Part shown: positions 44,356 through 51,137 of the stretch, piece by piece
How the letters are laid out: each line of letters starts with the position of its first letter
Position numbering within the stretch: the stretch's first letter is position 1
Source: Sediminibacterium sp.
GTDB lineage: Bacteria; Bacteroidota; Bacteroidia; B-17B0; Aurantibacillaceae
Length of the DNA: 64,000 bases
Direction: 5' to 3'
Assembly: GCA_030054095.1 (NCBI GenBank)
Contig: JASGCO010000004.1
Coordinates: 62,001-126,000, forward strand
The notes under the pieces: generated by a model
What the model saw: the letters and a program-made list of their open reading frames with translations, nothing else
The model's database searches: none
Told to the model about the DNA's origin: nothing
Translations under genes and position numbers: made by a program

Positions 44356-45072
44356 TTACCAGAACTTCCATGGAAATGATTTTCCTTTTCCATTCGTAGT
44401 AATTAAAGTGCCAGTTTCCTCAACTTTCGCTTTTTGTTTATGCTGAATTTCGTTAATGGAATTATCTAACCATAGTTCATACCAGTCTAAAAATTTCACC
44501 TTTTGTTTATTCCCCAATTCAAACGAGGGATAAATACCGTTGTCATTTGTCCTGTCATCCGTCCAAATATGGCCATATTCCGCTCCGTTTACTACTAAGT
44601 TTAACCTGACACCACACCCATAATTACAGATTGAAATTACACCATTCATATACTCCGGATTAAAATATTTACTATCAAACCCATCCAGTTCTGAATTATA
44701 CTTATCCAGATCCTGTTCCCCGGCTTCGGAAACTTCAAAATTTATATTCCAAGGTTCAGTCAGAAGAAAAGGCACAGAAGGATTCAATAACATTTCCTGA
44801 TGTTTATAATCCAAGTCACAAAACAAGGCATTCTCTATAGGCTCAAGTCCATAAAAGGGGCCAGCACCTCCATTTCCTATTTCGGTCAGAAACATTTTGT
44901 ACTCAATAGGCAATGTTATGTTATGTGCTTTCTCAAATTGTAAAATGGTTTCTTGGGACACTACTGGATTTAGCATATACCGATGTGTAGAAGCACCAAA
45001 CAATATCAGATTAGCATCTAGGACTTTCAACTGTTCCAGTTTCCCCTTTATTCTATGTAGTGACTTAATCAT
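44356..45072 (-). CDS. SMI1/KNR4 (SUKH) family protein
   Basis: 238 residues. SUKH core: LQFEKAHNITLPIEYKMFLTEIGNGGAGPFYGLEPI, then VISICNYGCGVRLNLVVNGAEYGHIW. SUKH proteins often act as immunity proteins against polymorphic toxins or as scaffolds. No toxin gene adjoins it. It is 46 bases downstream of the anti-sigma gene on the same strand, so it may be part of that transcript. Confidence 0.87.
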   Translation of the reverse strand: MIKSLHRIKGKLEQLKVLDANLILFGASTHRYMLNPVVSQETILQFEKAHNITLPIEYKMFLTEIGNGGAGPFYGLEPIENALFCDLDYKHQEMLLNPSVPFLLTEPWNINFEVSEAGEQDLDKYNSELDGFDSKYFNPEYMNGVISICNYGCGVRLNLVVNGAEYGHIWTDDRTNDNGIYPSFELGNKQKVKFLDWYELWLDNSINEIQHKQKAKVEETGTLITTNGKGKSFPWKFW

Positions 45073-45118: not shown

Positions 45119-47521
45119 CTAATTACCCTCATACGCAACAGAATCGGTAACGCTATTTCCTCCACATGGAAAAACAACAGGCCATAACTTTTGCCGGATT
45201 TCTTCCTTCTTTCTGATCTTTTCCTGTTTAATGGATTCATTTTGAGAAAATATCTGAAATTCTATTTCCTCCCATAAGTTACGAGTTGAAGCTATATTCT
45301 GCTGTTTTAATACCTCCTGTTCTTTAAGCGACAACTCGGCTAAGTTGACTTTATGTTGCCCCGTTTTAATATTCGTTAAGGTTTGTGCATAAAGTTTATT
45401 CCCTTTAAATCCGAGTACAAACGCATCATAAGTTACCAATTCATTCAGTTTTTCACTAAATTCTGAACCTGTTTGTGACATAAGTTGAAAACTTAGACCT
45501 TTTCCGGGCAATAAGTAAGCTATTACTCTATCGTATTCTTTTTCATGTTCCAGTTTAAGCGTTACAGGATTGTATATGATGATAGCCTGTTTACCGCTTT
45601 GCTGATCTTTATAATTAAGTGTTTCTCTGTTTGCCGTAGAAGTAAGCACATACGCGTCCAGATTTTTCCAGCCGGTACTCACTATGGTTGCGTTTAAATA
45701 ACGATCAGCCGGAGGGGGCGTTGGTTTGTACTCTTTACCCACCTGCCTGTAGGCTTCTTTTAGATTTAACTCCAGTTCTTTTGAAATGTTATCGTTGATA
45801 CGATCAAACTCTGACCATTCGTGCTTCTGAAATACTTCACGGGCTCTTTCTTTCTCTACTTGTTCTTTCGCATAGCTATCTTGCATAGTTTGAATTGCTG
45901 CTTGTTTAAACAAGGTTTGCTTGACGTGAAGGTATTGCGCTAATTTCTGCATTCGTGTATCGCTTATTTCAACGCCTCCATCGTGTCTTAAGTAGAATTT
46001 TTGAAATACGTTAGCCAGTTCCGGATTAATTCCCGACAACATTTCAGCAGCCATACTATCTAACTGGTACATTTTTTTATCAAGGTTACGGGTGTAGAGT
46101 TCTAATAGTGATGGGTTACAGGTTTTAAATATACTTTGTAAACGTTCTTCAAATGCTTTGGTAGCTAACAGGGTGCTGTTAAACTGACGATTATGAATCG
46201 CTTTAATCCGGTATGGCGCAATCTCACAGGTTTGTTGTCCCTTATCTGGAAACGACTCTGCTGAATTATTATCTATATATGCAATTATCGTATTTACATC
46301 TGTTTCTGTTAGCTGACCTTCAAATACAGTCATAGCCGCTTTACCATATTGCCGGTAAATTCTATTGGCGTATTCATCTCCGCTTTTGATGAGTTTTTCA
46401 TTATTGAGTATGAATTTAACCAGCCAATCACCTTTGGGAGCCCGTTGCGTAACACCTGCCAATCCGGGCCCTGTAAGCATTTGCGTACCGGCGCTATGGC
46501 AAACAGAACAATTTTGCCGGAATAGTTTTTCTCCTCGCATCAACTGTTGAGTGTTATTCCACGGCTGATCCCAATACTCCACATCATTAAAATCTACAGT
46601 TTTTGCTGAATCACCTGGTGCAGAGGGGGACGCTCCACATACATAAGAATAATAAATACTATCGGTTAACTGTTTGTTTTTGATATCAAAGCCCATTTTT
46701 TGCAATGTATCAAGAAAATGTGGCGGGTAAAAATTCAAGCTCATGATATCAACGGTGTGTAATGCGTTTTCCAGCTGACGCGGATTTATCCAGTTAATTT
46801 CACCGTTGGGTAAGCGCTGTCCGTCAAAGAGAAGCATGGGTTTACCTGGATTTATTTCCGGAATGCTGGCATGAATACCCTTACTTTGGTCTATGTCCAG
46901 GTTTTTAGCATTTTGCCGGGCGTTAACATAGAACATACCGCCTGTTTCCAGCAAACGGCCATTACTGAAGGTCGTTAACCCAGCTTTCATAATATCTAAC
47001 GGATTCAGGGCTTCTTTCACTTCTAGTTCTATTTCACCGGAGACAGCTTCAGCGGTGGCATTTAAAAAATTTTTAGCGGGAATGCTCAATAGTATTCCTC
47101 CTTTTGTTTCGATCACGGTATCTTTGCTTCCATCAATGGAAAAGATCTGAGATTCGAGGTACTTATCGGCGTTAGCCCATTGGCGTTGATTGCGTTCGTT
47201 TAGCTCGTAACGCAAATGGGTAGAGCTGTTGCCGGAAACGATCTGTTGTTTTATAACAACTATTATTCCTACTACAGCAATAGTTACAAGTGTAGTTAAG
47301 ACTATTTTTCTAATAATGGATTTAGTGCGGCCGGTTTTCAATCCTTTTTTAATGGCTTCTTTTTGTCCACTTCGAACAGCTCCCTGCATTAGCTCCTTAT
47401 AATCATCTAGTTGCTGACGCAAGTTTCTATCGTGTGCTAATTGTTTTTCAAATTCTGCTCTGGTCTTTGGATCCATCTGATTATTCAGATAATCCAGTAT
47501 ATACTGTGTTGTTTTATTCAT
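45119..47521 (-). CDS. Membrane anti-sigma factor with a c-type cytochrome domain
   Basis: 800 residues. The N-terminal 65 residues are a short cytosolic anti-sigma-type domain (YILDYLNNQMDPKTRAEFEKQL). One membrane helix lies at about 70-92 (IVLTTLVTIAVVGIIVVIKQ). Periplasmic part: a ZU5-like beta domain at about 120-220 (IETKGGILLSIPAKNF, GEIELEVKEALNPLDI). A class I cytochrome c then follows, with heme motif CSVCH at residues 338-342 and a probable axial Met in AAMTVFEGQLTETDVNTIIAYI. The remaining 370 residues are helical and unknown. It overlaps the ECF sigma gene by 8 bases, the usual sign of an anti-sigma partner. The heme domain in this position is unusual and suggests sensing of heme, redox state or a gas. 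Confidence 0.85.
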   Translation of the reverse strand: MNKTTQYILDYLNNQMDPKTRAEFEKQLAHDRNLRQQLDDYKELMQGAVRSGQKEAIKKGLKTGRTKSIIRKIVLTTLVTIAVVGIIVVIKQQIVSGNSSTHLRYELNERNQRQWANADKYLESQIFSIDGSKDTVIETKGGILLSIPAKNFLNATAEAVSGEIELEVKEALNPLDIMKAGLTTFSNGRLLETGGMFYVNARQNAKNLDIDQSKGIHASIPEINPGKPMLLFDGQRLPNGEINWINPRQLENALHTVDIMSLNFYPPHFLDTLQKMGFDIKNKQLTDSIYYSYVCGASPSAPGDSAKTVDFNDVEYWDQPWNNTQQLMRGEKLFRQNCSVCHSAGTQMLTGPGLAGVTQRAPKGDWLVKFILNNEKLIKSGDEYANRIYRQYGKAAMTVFEGQLTETDVNTIIAYIDNNSAESFPDKGQQTCEIAPYRIKAIHNRQFNSTLLATKAFEERLQSIFKTCNPSLLELYTRNLDKKMYQLDSMAAEMLSGINPELANVFQKFYLRHDGGVEISDTRMQKLAQYLHVKQTLFKQAAIQTMQDSYAKEQVEKERAREVFQKHEWSEFDRINDNISKELELNLKEAYRQVGKEYKPTPPPADRYLNATIVSTGWKNLDAYVLTSTANRETLNYKDQQSGKQAIIIYNPVTLKLEHEKEYDRVIAYLLPGKGLSFQLMSQTGSEFSEKLNELVTYDAFVLGFKGNKLYAQTLTNIKTGQHKVNLAELSLKEQEVLKQQNIASTRNLWEEIEFQIFSQNESIKQEKIRKKEEIRQKLWPVVFPCGGNSVTDSVAYEGN

Positions 47522-48062
47522 GGCTGTTGTTCTTTAGTGTTTGTAAATAGGTTCTTGCATTTTCGAGACAACGGTACTTTTGATTCTTCGCCACTTTTTC
47601 ATTGGCAAATCCCATTTTTTGAGCGATGGTTTTCAGATCAACCTTACCGTAGTAAAACAGTTGCAATAGTTGCTTACAACGCTGCCCCAGCCTATTAACA
47701 GCTCGCTCTGCCAACTTTATCTTTTCCTCCTGTTCTTCCCAGATTGTATCATTTCCTGCTATTTCGTTGGTATCTGTATGAACCTTGGTGTTTATTTTCC
47801 GTTTTTTGAGCACATCGCTCCATAAGTACCGGCAAACACTGTACAGGTAGGTATTTATGGAACTGGTAAGTATAAACTCCGGATTCTGTATCTTTCGGAA
47901 AAAAACGATCAATGCTTCCTGGTAAATATCTTCGGCATCTTGTCGGCTGCCACTATTTGCCAAAATTTGTTTTCTGACTACAGGAAAATAAGCGTATAAC
48001 TTTTCACTGGCTTTTGTATAATTTTCCTTCTTTAATAAGGTTAATATATCTTCATCTTTCAT
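47514..48062 (-). CDS. ECF-type RNA polymerase sigma factor
   Basis: 182 residues. Region 2 contains SRQDAEDIYQEALIVFFRKI and SINTYLYSVCRYLWSDVLKKRK; region 4 contains LGQRCKQLLQLFYYGKVDLKTIAQKMGFANEKVAKNQKYRCLENAR. Size and layout match Bacteroidota ECF sigmas. Overlaps the cytochrome-bearing anti-sigma gene by 8 bases. Its promoter is not evident in the 540-base repeat-rich region upstream. Confidence 0.93.
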   Translation of the reverse strand: MKDEDILTLLKKENYTKASEKLYAYFPVVRKQILANSGSRQDAEDIYQEALIVFFRKIQNPEFILTSSINTYLYSVCRYLWSDVLKKRKINTKVHTDTNEIAGNDTIWEEQEEKIKLAERAVNRLGQRCKQLLQLFYYGKVDLKTIAQKMGFANEKVAKNQKYRCLENARTYLQTLKNNSHE

Positions 48063-48242
48063 TCGTTTTTTACATTAATGGAAAAAAAACAAAAAGGTCA
48101 TCACTGACTTTTTATTTTAGTTCACTAATGTACTATCAAATTCAAATATAACACGACAACAACATATTAAACCCATTGTTTTCTGGCAACTCTTATGGTA
48201 CATAAACCCCTGCGCCAGGGATGGAACGGTCTGTCTGAGCTC

Positions 48243-48312: not shown

Positions 48313-48515
48313 ACCCAGATCGTGCATTAGAAATCCTATTACGAACAAAAAGGCCGATAAAATCTGAAGCTTCGCATCCTGGCACCAGCCCGCTCATAAA
48401 CCCACTGGCTTTATGCCGTTCATTCACCATAGTGGTGACTATGACTCAATCGCAAAAGTTCAAATTTTATCGGCCTTTTTGCTCTCACTACATATTTCTA
48501 ATGCACGATCTGGGT
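48313..48515. repeat. 203-base structured palindromic element (MITE-like or structured RNA)
   Basis: Perfect 22-bp terminal inverted repeats (48313-48334 and 48494-48515) enclose a second perfect 18-bp inverted repeat (48346-48363 and 48464-48481). The about 100-base apex has smaller hairpins: 48396-48414 (ATAAA..TTTAT, loop ACT) and 48424-48438 (TCACCA/TGGTGA). A diverged relative lies at 51298-51440. It has no coding content worth calling; short frames through it are by-products of symmetry. It could be a non-autonomous mobile element or a conserved RNA. Confidence 0.8.
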
Positions 48516-48602: not shown

Positions 48603-49946
48603 TTATTTCATGAACATGTCGCGTAACCAGTCGGTATTGGCGAAGAGCATAAGGGCCAATACAATGTATAAGCCTACGTTGTTGGCTACATAAATAATCT
48701 TATCGCTTACTTTTTTGCCGGTAATCATTTCCCAAAGAATAAACATTACGTAACCGCCATCTAACATAGGGATTGGTAAGAAATTCATAAACGCTAATGC
48801 CAGTGACAGGAATCCGGTAAACATCCAGAAATTTTCCCAGTCCCACTCAGAAGGCATGGCTTTGGTCATGGTGGCAAAACCTCCAATTTGCAAATACGCG
48901 TCTTTTACCGTGAAAATAACTACCAATTGTTTTACCTGCATTACCACTTTTTCCCAGGCATCTTTAGAACCTTGTACAATGGCTTCAACAAAGCCGAAAG
49001 ATTGATGATGTATTACATAGGTTTCTTTTCCATCTACTACTATTCCCAGTGTACCTTTAGTGGTCAGCTTATTTACACTTTTAATAGTGTCGGTGCCACG
49101 TAAAAGGGTAAGACTTACTTCTTTTCCGCGGTTAGGATACAACTGCGCTTTTAATTCGTCCTGATATTTAACAGGAACACCATTTACCGCGATGATGTAA
49201 TCTCCCTTCTTCATGGGAGTGTTAGCGGCAAAGGAGCCCGCTTCGATGCTGTCAATTTTGGTAATATTACGTGGTGCAATAAATGGCGATACTTTCAGGT
49301 TTTTTAAGATAATGCTACGGTCGCGATCGGTTACCGGAATGCTGAATGGTTGACCGTTGGCATGCACCCCTTCGATGGTAGCTACTTTATTCATAATAAT
49401 TTCGACAGGAATACGGTTAATGGATTTTACCGGAATGTGATCGAGTGATGTAATGTAATCGCCATTGCGCAATCCCATTTTATAAGCAACGCTGTCTACC
49501 TGCAAGCCGTATTTTAAGCCGGTTACGGGCTGAGTGTTTTTACCCCATACCCATAGTACCATCCAGAAGATCAGAAAACCTAAAATGAGGTTAACAATAA
49601 TCCCCCCCAACATAACCAACAAGCGTTGCCAGGCTGGTTTACTGCGTAGTTCCCATGGTTCAGCCGGACGGTCAATCATGTCTTTATCCATTTGCTCATC
49701 TACCATGCCGGCAATTTGCACATAGCCCCCAAACGGGAACCACCCCAAACCGTATTCTGTATCCCCTATTTTTTTCTTGAAAAGTGAAAATGGCAGAAGG
49801 TTGGCAAAGGGAAACAGAAAATCAAAAAACAGGTAAAACTTATCTACCCGGGTTTTAAAGCGTCGGGCAAACCAGAAGTGACCAAATTCGTGAAGGGTAA
49901 TAAGGATGGTTAGACTTAAAAAGAGTTGAGCAATTTTAATGAACAT
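48603..49946 (-). CDS. rseP: Site-2 protease RseP (M50 family)
   Basis: 447 residues. Zinc motif HEFGH at 19-23 in the first membrane helix; the second metal ligand is in the C-terminal NFLPIPMLDGGYVMFILWEMITG (LDG motif). Two PDZ domains between (about 120-300). It cuts anti-sigma factors and other membrane proteins inside the membrane. 15 bases downstream of dxr, a common pairing. The ECF/anti-sigma pair lies 540 bases further on the same strand and could include a substrate. Confidence 0.95.
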   Translation of the reverse strand: MFIKIAQLFLSLTILITLHEFGHFWFARRFKTRVDKFYLFFDFLFPFANLLPFSLFKKKIGDTEYGLGWFPFGGYVQIAGMVDEQMDKDMIDRPAEPWELRSKPAWQRLLVMLGGIIVNLILGFLIFWMVLWVWGKNTQPVTGLKYGLQVDSVAYKMGLRNGDYITSLDHIPVKSINRIPVEIIMNKVATIEGVHANGQPFSIPVTDRDRSIILKNLKVSPFIAPRNITKIDSIEAGSFAANTPMKKGDYIIAVNGVPVKYQDELKAQLYPNRGKEVSLTLLRGTDTIKSVNKLTTKGTLGIVVDGKETYVIHHQSFGFVEAIVQGSKDAWEKVVMQVKQLVVIFTVKDAYLQIGGFATMTKAMPSEWDWENFWMFTGFLSLALAFMNFLPIPMLDGGYVMFILWEMITGKKVSDKIIYVANNVGLYIVLALMLFANTDWLRDMFMK

Positions 49947-49961
49947 GACAGGATTTTAAAT

Positions 49962-51137
49962 TTATAAATGTGAAGAATAATGTTGCTGAATAATAGCTTG
50001 TGCTAACTGCCTTGTATCGGCATCGGAGGCAATGTACTGTTCGTAATCCGGTATAGCTATAAAGTGAGCTTTGGCAAGCGCTTGTTCAACCACTTCGCCA
50101 ATTTGTAAAAACCGGATTTTATCTTTCAGAAACGCGTCCACTGCAACTTCGTTGGCCGCATTAATAATACAGGGGGCATTTCCTCCTTTTTTTAATGCTT
50201 CGTAAGCCAGAGCTAAGTTAGTAAATGTTTCAAGGTCGGGCTTTTCGAAAGTGAGTTGCGGGTAGTTAAAAAAATCAAAACGCGGAAAAGGCGTAGTTAT
50301 ACGGTAAGGATACGTGAAAGCATAGTGAATGGGTAACTTCATATCCGGAAGTCCCATCTGGGCTTTCATGCTACCATCGTTAAACTGTACAATACTGTGC
50401 AGAATACTTTGCGGATGCACAATAACATCAATCTGTTCGGGTTGAAGATTAAACAGCCATTTTGCCTCAATTACCTCGAGGCCTTTGTTCATGAGTGTAG
50501 CCGAGTCAATGGTAATTTTAGCCCCCATGCTCCAGTTGGGATGTTTCAGCGCCTGTTCGCGGGTTACACTTGCCAGATCGGAACGGGTTTTCCCACGAAA
50601 AGGCCCTCCACTGGCAGTAAGGTAAATTTTCTCAATACTGTTTTCCCACTCACCGGTCAGACATTGAAAGATAGCCGAATGTTCGCTATCTACCGGGTAA
50701 ATGTTCACGCCGTTTTCCATGGCCAAACGGGTTACCAGATCGCCCGCCACTACCAACGTTTCTTTATTGGCCAGAGCAATGGTTTTTTTATGGCGGATGG
50801 CATTTAGCGTACTGGCAAGTCCCGCATATCCTACAATAGCGGCCAGCACAATGTCAATGCTTTCCATTTCCACAATTTGTTCTACTGAACGCGCCCCGGC
50901 ATACACTTTTATATCGTGTGGCTGTAAAGCTTCCTTTACTTCCTGATATTTACTTTCGTCGGCAATAACTACGGCATTGGGTTGGGTAGCCATAGCCTGC
51001 TGTATCAATAATGCGGCATTGCTATTTGCCACCAGCACTTCTACCTTAAAATGTTCCGGATTAGCCGCTATTACATCAAGTGCCTGAGTTCCAATACTTC
51101 CCGTACATCCAACAATTGCTATATGCTTAATTTTCAA
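49962..51137 (-). CDS. dxr: 1-deoxy-D-xylulose 5-phosphate reductoisomerase
   Basis: 391 residues. Second step of the MEP isoprenoid pathway: DXP to MEP with NADPH. NADPH loop GCTGSIGTQALDVI at the start; metal/substrate region PVDSEHSAIFQCL and ASGGPFRG; NWSMGAKITIDSATLMNKGLEVIEA is the conserved catalytic loop region. First gene of the dxr-rseP pair. Confidence 0.97.
   Translation of the reverse strand: MKIKHIAIVGCTGSIGTQALDVIAANPEHFKVEVLVANSNAALLIQQAMATQPNAVVIADESKYQEVKEALQPHDIKVYAGARSVEQIVEMESIDIVLAAIVGYAGLASTLNAIRHKKTIALANKETLVVAGDLVTRLAMENGVNIYPVDSEHSAIFQCLTGEWENSIEKIYLTASGGPFRGKTRSDLASVTREQALKHPNWSMGAKITIDSATLMNKGLEVIEAKWLFNLQPEQIDVIVHPQSILHSIVQFNDGSMKAQMGLPDMKLPIHYAFTYPYRITTPFPRFDFFNYPQLTFEKPDLETFTNLALAYEALKKGGNAPCIINAANEVAVDAFLKDKIRFLQIGEVVEQALAKAHFIAIPDYEQYIASDADTRQLAQAIIQQHYSSHL

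Follow-up and report, generated by a model that had tools for sequence, protein, structure and literature searches.

What does a bacterial cell monitor with an anti-sigma factor whose periplasmic part carries a cytochrome c domain? This question is raised by a locus in the stretch of Sediminibacterium sp. DNA analysed here, 64,000 nucleotides in length (contig JASGCO010000004.1, positions 62,001 to 126,000) and hereafter called the window, in which the gene of an ECF sigma factor overlaps with that of a large membrane protein. Most sensor domains of ECF anti-sigma factors have yet to be characterised, and the original prediction for this locus, which was made from the sequence alone, proposed the pair as a candidate sensor of heme supply, redox state, O2 or NO. 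The features on which the following analysis is based are listed with their window coordinates:

48075-48102, minus strand: predicted autoregulatory ECF promoter, GATGACCTTT-N12-CATTAA, upstream of the sigma gene
47514-48062, minus strand: ECF sigma factor gene, 182 aa
45119-47521, minus strand: gene of the anti-sigma-like membrane protein with periplasmic cytochrome c, 800 aa (the partner)
47312-47521, minus strand: predicted cytosolic anti-sigma domain, residues 1-70 of the partner
47240-47308, minus strand: single membrane helix, residues about 72-94
46646-47167, minus strand: beta domain, distantly ZU5/GAIN-like, residues 119-292
46268-46540, minus strand: cytochrome c domain, residues 328-418
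46496-46510, minus strand: CSVCH heme c attachment motif, residues 338-342
46331-46333, minus strand: Met397, predicted axial heme ligand
45743-46216, minus strand: helical module, residues 436-593, including a predicted 72-residue helix
45173-45619, minus strand: C-terminal beta domain and long helix, residues 635-783

The two open reading frames and their overlap of 8 bases (47514-47521, both on the minus strand), as described originally, were confirmed. In profile searches, the product of the sigma gene was matched above cutoff by TIGR02937 (3.6e-16) and by the Pfam family Sigma70_r2 (1.6e-5), and weakly by a sigma region 4 profile (E 0.04). With regions sigma2 and sigma4, neither sigma1 nor sigma3 and a length in the range of about 180-200 aa, the 182-aa protein is, judged by its sequence, an ECF sigma factor. 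The partner is predicted to be a membrane-anchored anti-sigma factor by its architecture, namely the helical N-terminus ahead of the sole membrane helix and the overlap of its gene with the sigma gene. Its N-terminus showed no significant family match, the NCBIfam antisigma match being weak (E 0.085). The single membrane helix claimed in the original prediction corresponds to the sole strong hydropathy peak at residues about 72-94, with a value of 2.67 as compared with 0.88 for the next-best 19-residue window away from it.

An AlphaFold model of the 800-aa partner (mean pLDDT 69.7) consists of a helical N-terminus, a beta domain, a class I cytochrome, a helical part, a second beta domain (about residues 635-725) and a final long helix, in this order. 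The region behind the cytochrome, at first described as a long unknown helical tail, is indeed predicted to be helical at residues 436-593 and in the final long helix, but the second beta domain lies between them. When the full 800-aa model was compared with the folds in the PDB, the cytochrome dominated the result, and the first beta domain, which is conserved in the alignments, was searched separately. Modelled alone, it had among its best structural neighbours the ZU5 domain of ZO-1, the GAIN domains of adhesion GPCRs and the FIIND of NLRP1, with Z scores of 4.2 to 2.9 only. Neither a Pfam ZU5 match nor a PDB sequence match was found for this domain. The label “ZU5-like” given to it originally thus lacks sequence support and, in view of structural neighbours of these kinds at low Z, is plausible but weak. 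The autoproteolytic ZU5/GPS signature is a C-terminal CxH (Zhang et al. 2012, PMC3482391) or an H-L/F-S/T cleavage motif; neither H[LFVI][ST] nor CxH occurs anywhere in the 800-aa partner.

The cytochrome domain itself stands on firmer ground. Residues 328-418 were matched above cutoff by the cytochrome c family PF00034 (E=1e-9), and M397 is located at +59 from the CSVCH motif. The predicted fold could be aligned to a cytochrome c of R. marinus with a VIA-align Z of 10.6 and an rmsd of 2.5 over 94 residues. By its CxxCH motif, its downstream Met and its predicted class I fold, the domain is a class I cytochrome c, as the original prediction had recognised, and we infer that it is loaded with heme. 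Far from being absent in close homologues, the CSVCH domain is retained there, since the seven closest ones show no variation at C338, C341, H342 and M397; a CxxCH motif with a Met 57-64 residues downstream is kept in 22 of the 22 family members that have a cytochrome at this site.

What is the origin of this cytochrome? The best PDB sequence match of the domain is 6btm_A, which is ActA of the F. johnsoniae Alternative Complex III (ACIII), and the closest relationship leads back to the host cell. Over about 88 aa, the domain shares 73-75% identity with the monoheme domain at the N-terminus of the genome's own six-heme ActA, which is encoded elsewhere (L002), and the similarity of the partner to this ActA ends at the domain edges. 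The partner as ActA itself was considered and rejected, as only the monoheme domain is common to both and the layout of monoheme domain, membrane segment and five-heme part is missing. In a 10 by 10 identity table of lineage representatives, the own ActA was the closest of the ten ActAs in all ten cases. The mean identity to the own ActA was 53% in these ten lineages, as compared with 31% among the slot cytochromes (for the slot, see below), and none of 100,000 permutations gave a pairing as good as the one observed. In trees of ActA and slot domains, slot cytochromes from divergent hosts pair with the ActA of their own genome; own-genome sister pairs were recovered for 7 of 11 slot/ActA pairs, six of them strongly. 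Furthermore, a single clade of slot cytochromes was rejected with a p-AU of 1.07e-6 for 16 slot rows, and with a far lower value in the reduced set.

When all 55 ActAs were ranked, the own ActA came first for 13 of 20 members. Most of the remaining ranks fall in the genus of the window, where the ActAs of sister species are nearly as close; the own ActA of the window ranks 4 of 55, and those of L034 and L037 rank 14 and 21. A clear exception is L047, the own ActA of which ranks 32nd among 55. By these sequence comparisons, self-pairing holds at the level of lineages; inside the genus, the closest ActA frequently belongs to a sister species. The slot copies are not decaying: differences between the window copy and its own ActA are concentrated at third codon positions (20/16/51 for the three positions), and 77% of the residues invariant in the ActAs of the genus are kept. 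The ActA-invariant residues K32, F35, D36 and W47 (excerpt numbering) are altered in most slot copies of the genus, so the docking face of ActA may not be fully kept. Taken together, the comparisons identify the cytochrome of the window as a copy of the monoheme domain of the host's own ActA, which the original prediction had missed. At another locus (L154, genome G127), two neighbouring sigma/anti-sigma pairs with cytochrome slots were observed and no ActA was found in this genome at E 1e-15; the donor or the partner may differ in this case.

The site occupied by the cytochrome turned out to be exchangeable, which the original prediction had likewise overlooked. In an alignment of 42 members, a slot can be delimited between the beta domain, ending with TDSIYYSF, and the C-terminal module, starting with EINPSRIKAIW. 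The slot holds a cytochrome c in 22 members and is a short linker, i.e. empty, in many relatives. In two families (L148 and L152), it contains a PpiC-type parvulin (PF13616, 1e-21 and 2e-12). The slot of L159 is DsbD_N-like by a weak Pfam match only (E 0.009), and L158 has a beta-rich insert that looks DsbD-N-like by eye and was assigned to no donor in the donor search. A TonB_C match at the C-terminus was seen in L155, L160 and L161, which belong to one genus, and was below cutoff in L155. On a backbone tree calculated without the slot, the cytochrome state changes 10 times by the fewest-changes count, and at least six times if well-supported branches alone are considered. The slot state differs even between two species of a single genus (g21): the slot is empty in one of them, and a cytochrome is present in the other (L151), the gene of which is truncated and may be a pseudogene. 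Three of the other inserts resemble the host's own proteins as well. The parvulin domains of L148 and L152 match the PpiD of their own genomes best (52% identity, 100 bits vs 89 for the next genome, and 43%, 101 bits vs 55, respectively), and the insert of L159 matches its own-genome DsbD best (74 bits vs 57). With three donor proteins (ActA, PpiD and DsbD) and a dozen lineages, the slot domain thus usually resembles an envelope protein of its own genome best. Both the exchange and the origin of the domains are evident at the sequence level, and relatives appear to carry copies of other envelope proteins of their hosts at this site.

Relatives turned up within the window's genus and family and in further Bacteroidia, the contigs being scanned with the conserved C-terminal alignment. 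The family shows a patchy distribution in Bacteroidia, with members in 14 of 87 genomes of the window's family, 10 of 40 genomes of its genus and 36 of 395 sampled genomes of the class. Sigma genes homologous to that of the window adjoin most full-length members, and members without any slot domain still keep the sigma pair. At one locus (L040) the gene order differs and a separate third gene, accompanying the sigma gene, carries the anti-sigma domain. Free-standing modules, membrane-anchored or lipoprotein-like, without anti-sigma domain and sigma gene were also detected (L037, L042, L043, L054, L150 and L164). L042 and L043 look like lipoprotein versions, and in L037, L054 and L150 the periplasmic module is present, cytochrome included, without an adjacent sigma gene or anti-sigma domain, so the module may act in other ways than in sigma control. 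With the recurring architecture, the adjacent sigma genes in most members, the invariant heme ligands and the conserved promoter described below, the predicted pairing of an ECF sigma factor with an anti-sigma factor that bears a putative periplasmic heme c domain finds good support in the sequences.

Upstream of the sigma genes, the family shows the pattern TGACCTTT-N12-CATTAA, mostly 36-43 bases before the start codon, and a motif of the ACCTT type precedes about 29 of 34 family sigma genes, including those of members with parvulin, DsbD-like and empty slots. The exact pattern occurs once per genome, ahead of the sigma gene, in six member genomes (G000, G030, G026, G069, G072 and G099), which are the window's genome and five relatives, and is absent from six non-member genomes. 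In the genome of the window, 48075-48102 is the sole promoter match at up to 1 mismatch; this uniqueness, too, had escaped the original prediction. At the same threshold, the remaining matches in the member genomes were no more numerous than those of the reversed control pattern, and a control scan with an 11-base spacer gave matches at background level only. Autoregulation of the sigma gene from this promoter is suggested by its conservation. No regulon beyond the own operon, respiratory target genes included, was found at up to 1 mismatch. As the sole strong promoter match lies before the sigma gene, the sigma factor seems to control chiefly its own operon, perhaps together with weaker targets. 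In L082 (4715-5989; the same gene as L048 3396-4670), the open frame of the sigma gene runs 244 codons further upstream; the family promoter lies inside this extension, which is therefore probably an open frame only.

The surroundings of the pair were inspected as well. Directly downstream of the partner gene, the window contains a gene of the SMI1/KNR4 (SUKH) family (44356-45072), a typical immunity family of polymorphic toxins. Upstream and on the same strand, an rseP-type site-2 protease gene (Peptidase_M50 with PDZ) and dxr are located at 48603-51137. The rseP-type product is a candidate protease for the anti-sigma factor, and rseP is not syntenic in the relatives. Between rseP and the sigma gene lies a structured intergenic element with nested inverted repeats (48313-48515), the outer arms of which form a perfect 22-nt inverted repeat (48313-48334/48494-48515) and the inner arms a 33-nt inverted repeat of 85% (48343-48375/48452-48484); it looks like a small non-autonomous mobile element. 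An Rfam search found no riboswitch or other Rfam element. No conserved gene neighbourhood was found across the family loci. The neighbouring genes were therefore dismissed as functional partners, the SUKH gene and rseP/dxr looking like local context.

How might the cassette work? A tentative reading, whose chance of being right we place slightly below even, is that the sigma/anti-sigma cassette is autoregulated and taps the envelope machines of the host by means of a self-derived slot domain, the ActA copy of the window reporting the state of the ACIII branch. The sigma factor would transcribe its own operon from the conserved promoter, and the N-terminus of the partner would hold it at the membrane, as the architecture suggests. 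In the periplasmic part, the ZU5/GAIN-like domain, the helical module and the beta domain form a conserved scaffold, the slot of which accommodates the host-copied domain, as the sequences show. In the window, the slot holds the copy of ActA's mobile monoheme domain, the putative electron carrier between Alternative Complex III and the terminal oxidase. This copy would most likely exchange electrons or dock with the partners of ActA. The anti-sigma factor could thereby follow how the ACIII branch is assembled or what its redox state is, and might be released or destroyed upon a change, setting the sigma factor free. Replacement of the slot domain by the host's own copy in each lineage could keep the sensor matched to its co-evolving partners, also after transfer of the gene to a new host. 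We infer four parts of this scheme, namely sigma binding, heme loading, the signal and the release step. As regards the ligands proposed originally, a six-coordinate Met-His heme makes sensing of O2 or NO less likely. A Met-ligated domain derived from ActA suggests that the respiratory chain is sensed, through electron-transfer redox or through a partner.

The same data can be read in other ways. The slot might serve as an integrated bait (decoy). It would then present a copy of an envelope domain of the host against which a toxin, protease, phage or competitor is directed, be it for attack or for hijacking, and damage to this copy or its binding would free the sigma factor, chiefly to replenish the cassette. 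Such a function would need copies of the host's own proteins and their frequent exchange, both of which are seen, and it agrees with the strong promoter solely ahead of the cassette, with the patchy occurrence within the genus and with the existence of sigma-less modules. However, no known attacker of the ActA, PpiD or DsbD domains was identified, no PADLOC match to a known anti-phage defence system was obtained, the cassette was found neither on phages nor on plasmids and a conserved defence neighbourhood is missing; moreover, both heme ligands are strictly kept, as would be expected of a working redox centre. We regard this explanation as unlikely. The idea that the domain reports on maturation, since it depends on the envelope machinery that also serves the host protein, we hold to be quite unlikely: failed attachment of heme c, or failed folding or disulfide supply in the case of other inserts, would let the domain unfold and be proteolysed, whereby the sigma factor is released. 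The slot types (cytochrome c, PPIase and DsbD-N-like) all concern envelope redox or folding, and the RseP-type homologue encoded upstream could supply the protease; but any cytochrome c would serve here, so the repeated match to the own ActA is not predicted, and the adjoining RseP is not conserved at other loci.

Two further explanations were considered. If the periplasmic module were the effector itself, e.g. a backup electron carrier or a chaperone scaffold, the sigma/anti-sigma pair would merely autoregulate its amount. The strong promoter unique to the operon and the six free-standing modules without anti-sigma domain and sigma gene would fit, but the identity of the slot domain varies widely while the scaffold stays, and members without a slot domain keep the sigma pair, which makes this a very unlikely explanation. 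Least of all do we expect non-adaptive ectopic recombination, in which the slot merely tolerates insertions and the likeness to ActA results from gene conversion with similar genomic sequence; we consider it highly improbable. That the slot is a variable linker, empty in many relatives, is in line with it, whereas the different donors at one site, the in-frame insertions, the intact heme ligands in all 22 cytochrome-bearing members and the third-position bias of the changes speak against it. Beyond the window, a bolder generalisation can be framed, to which we attach no great likelihood: a class of anti-sigma factors with a dedicated slot, refilled by the host's own envelope domains (ActA cytochrome, PpiD parvulin and DsbD-N) as integrated self-derived baits, by which the cell would monitor its own machines or their attackers and the sigma factor would mainly renew the bait.

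To return to the preferred reading, a sensor that taps the ACIII branch: should the slot domain indeed be copied from a host protein, one could tell from its identity which pathway is watched, and the sequence would reveal the sensed machine. The host-copied slot domains suggest an undescribed way of building sensors (or baits) from the cell's own parts. If true, the window encodes an anti-sigma factor whose covalent-heme periplasmic domain is linked to Alternative Complex III, and the cassette may be a bacterial counterpart of integrated-decoy receptors. As a kind, the cassette is an ECF sigma/anti-sigma system, found in uncultured Bacteroidota. No description of an anti-sigma factor with a cytochrome c domain was found in searches of the open-access literature, and to our knowledge an exchangeable slot that receives envelope domains of the host itself is undescribed.

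Among known systems, ActA of the F. johnsoniae ACIII (PDB 6btm, PMC8552683) has the homologous N-terminal monoheme cytochrome domain; its sixth heme, at the N-terminus, is in a mobile domain proposed as an electron shuttle to cytochrome aa3 (PMC8552683). The partner differs in that it has no five-heme part, is fused to an anti-sigma-like scaffold and has several ActA-invariant residues altered. In two reports on RsiV (PMC4183432, PMC5014341), an anti-sigma factor is described as capable of binding an extracytoplasmic ligand directly. The systems RsiV/sigV (lysozyme receptor) and RseA/DegS/RseP, in which regulated proteolysis of the membrane anti-sigma factor activates the ECF sigma factor, share with the window pair the cytosolic N-terminus, one membrane helix, an extracytoplasmic sensor and the sigma-first operon. 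In contrast to them, the sensor of the window carries a predicted covalent-heme cytochrome c, and some of its relatives carry other host-copied envelope domains.

Anti-sigma factors of the FecR/HasS type act in cell-surface signalling and respond to heme or siderophore signals. They resemble the partner as one-helix anti-sigma factors of Gram-negatives, with a link to heme in HasS, but no TonB-dependent transducer was recognised next to the window locus, and the heme would, as predicted, be bound covalently by the anti-sigma factor itself. Integrated-decoy immune receptors are known from plants (NLR-ID) and mammals (NLRP1 with ZU5-UPA/FIIND). The likeness, an analogy only, lies in the copy of a host domain within a signalling receptor, its repeated exchange and a distantly ZU5-like domain. 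In contrast to these receptors, the cassette concerns the regulation of a bacterial sigma factor, with no known attacker and with no autoproteolysis motif found.
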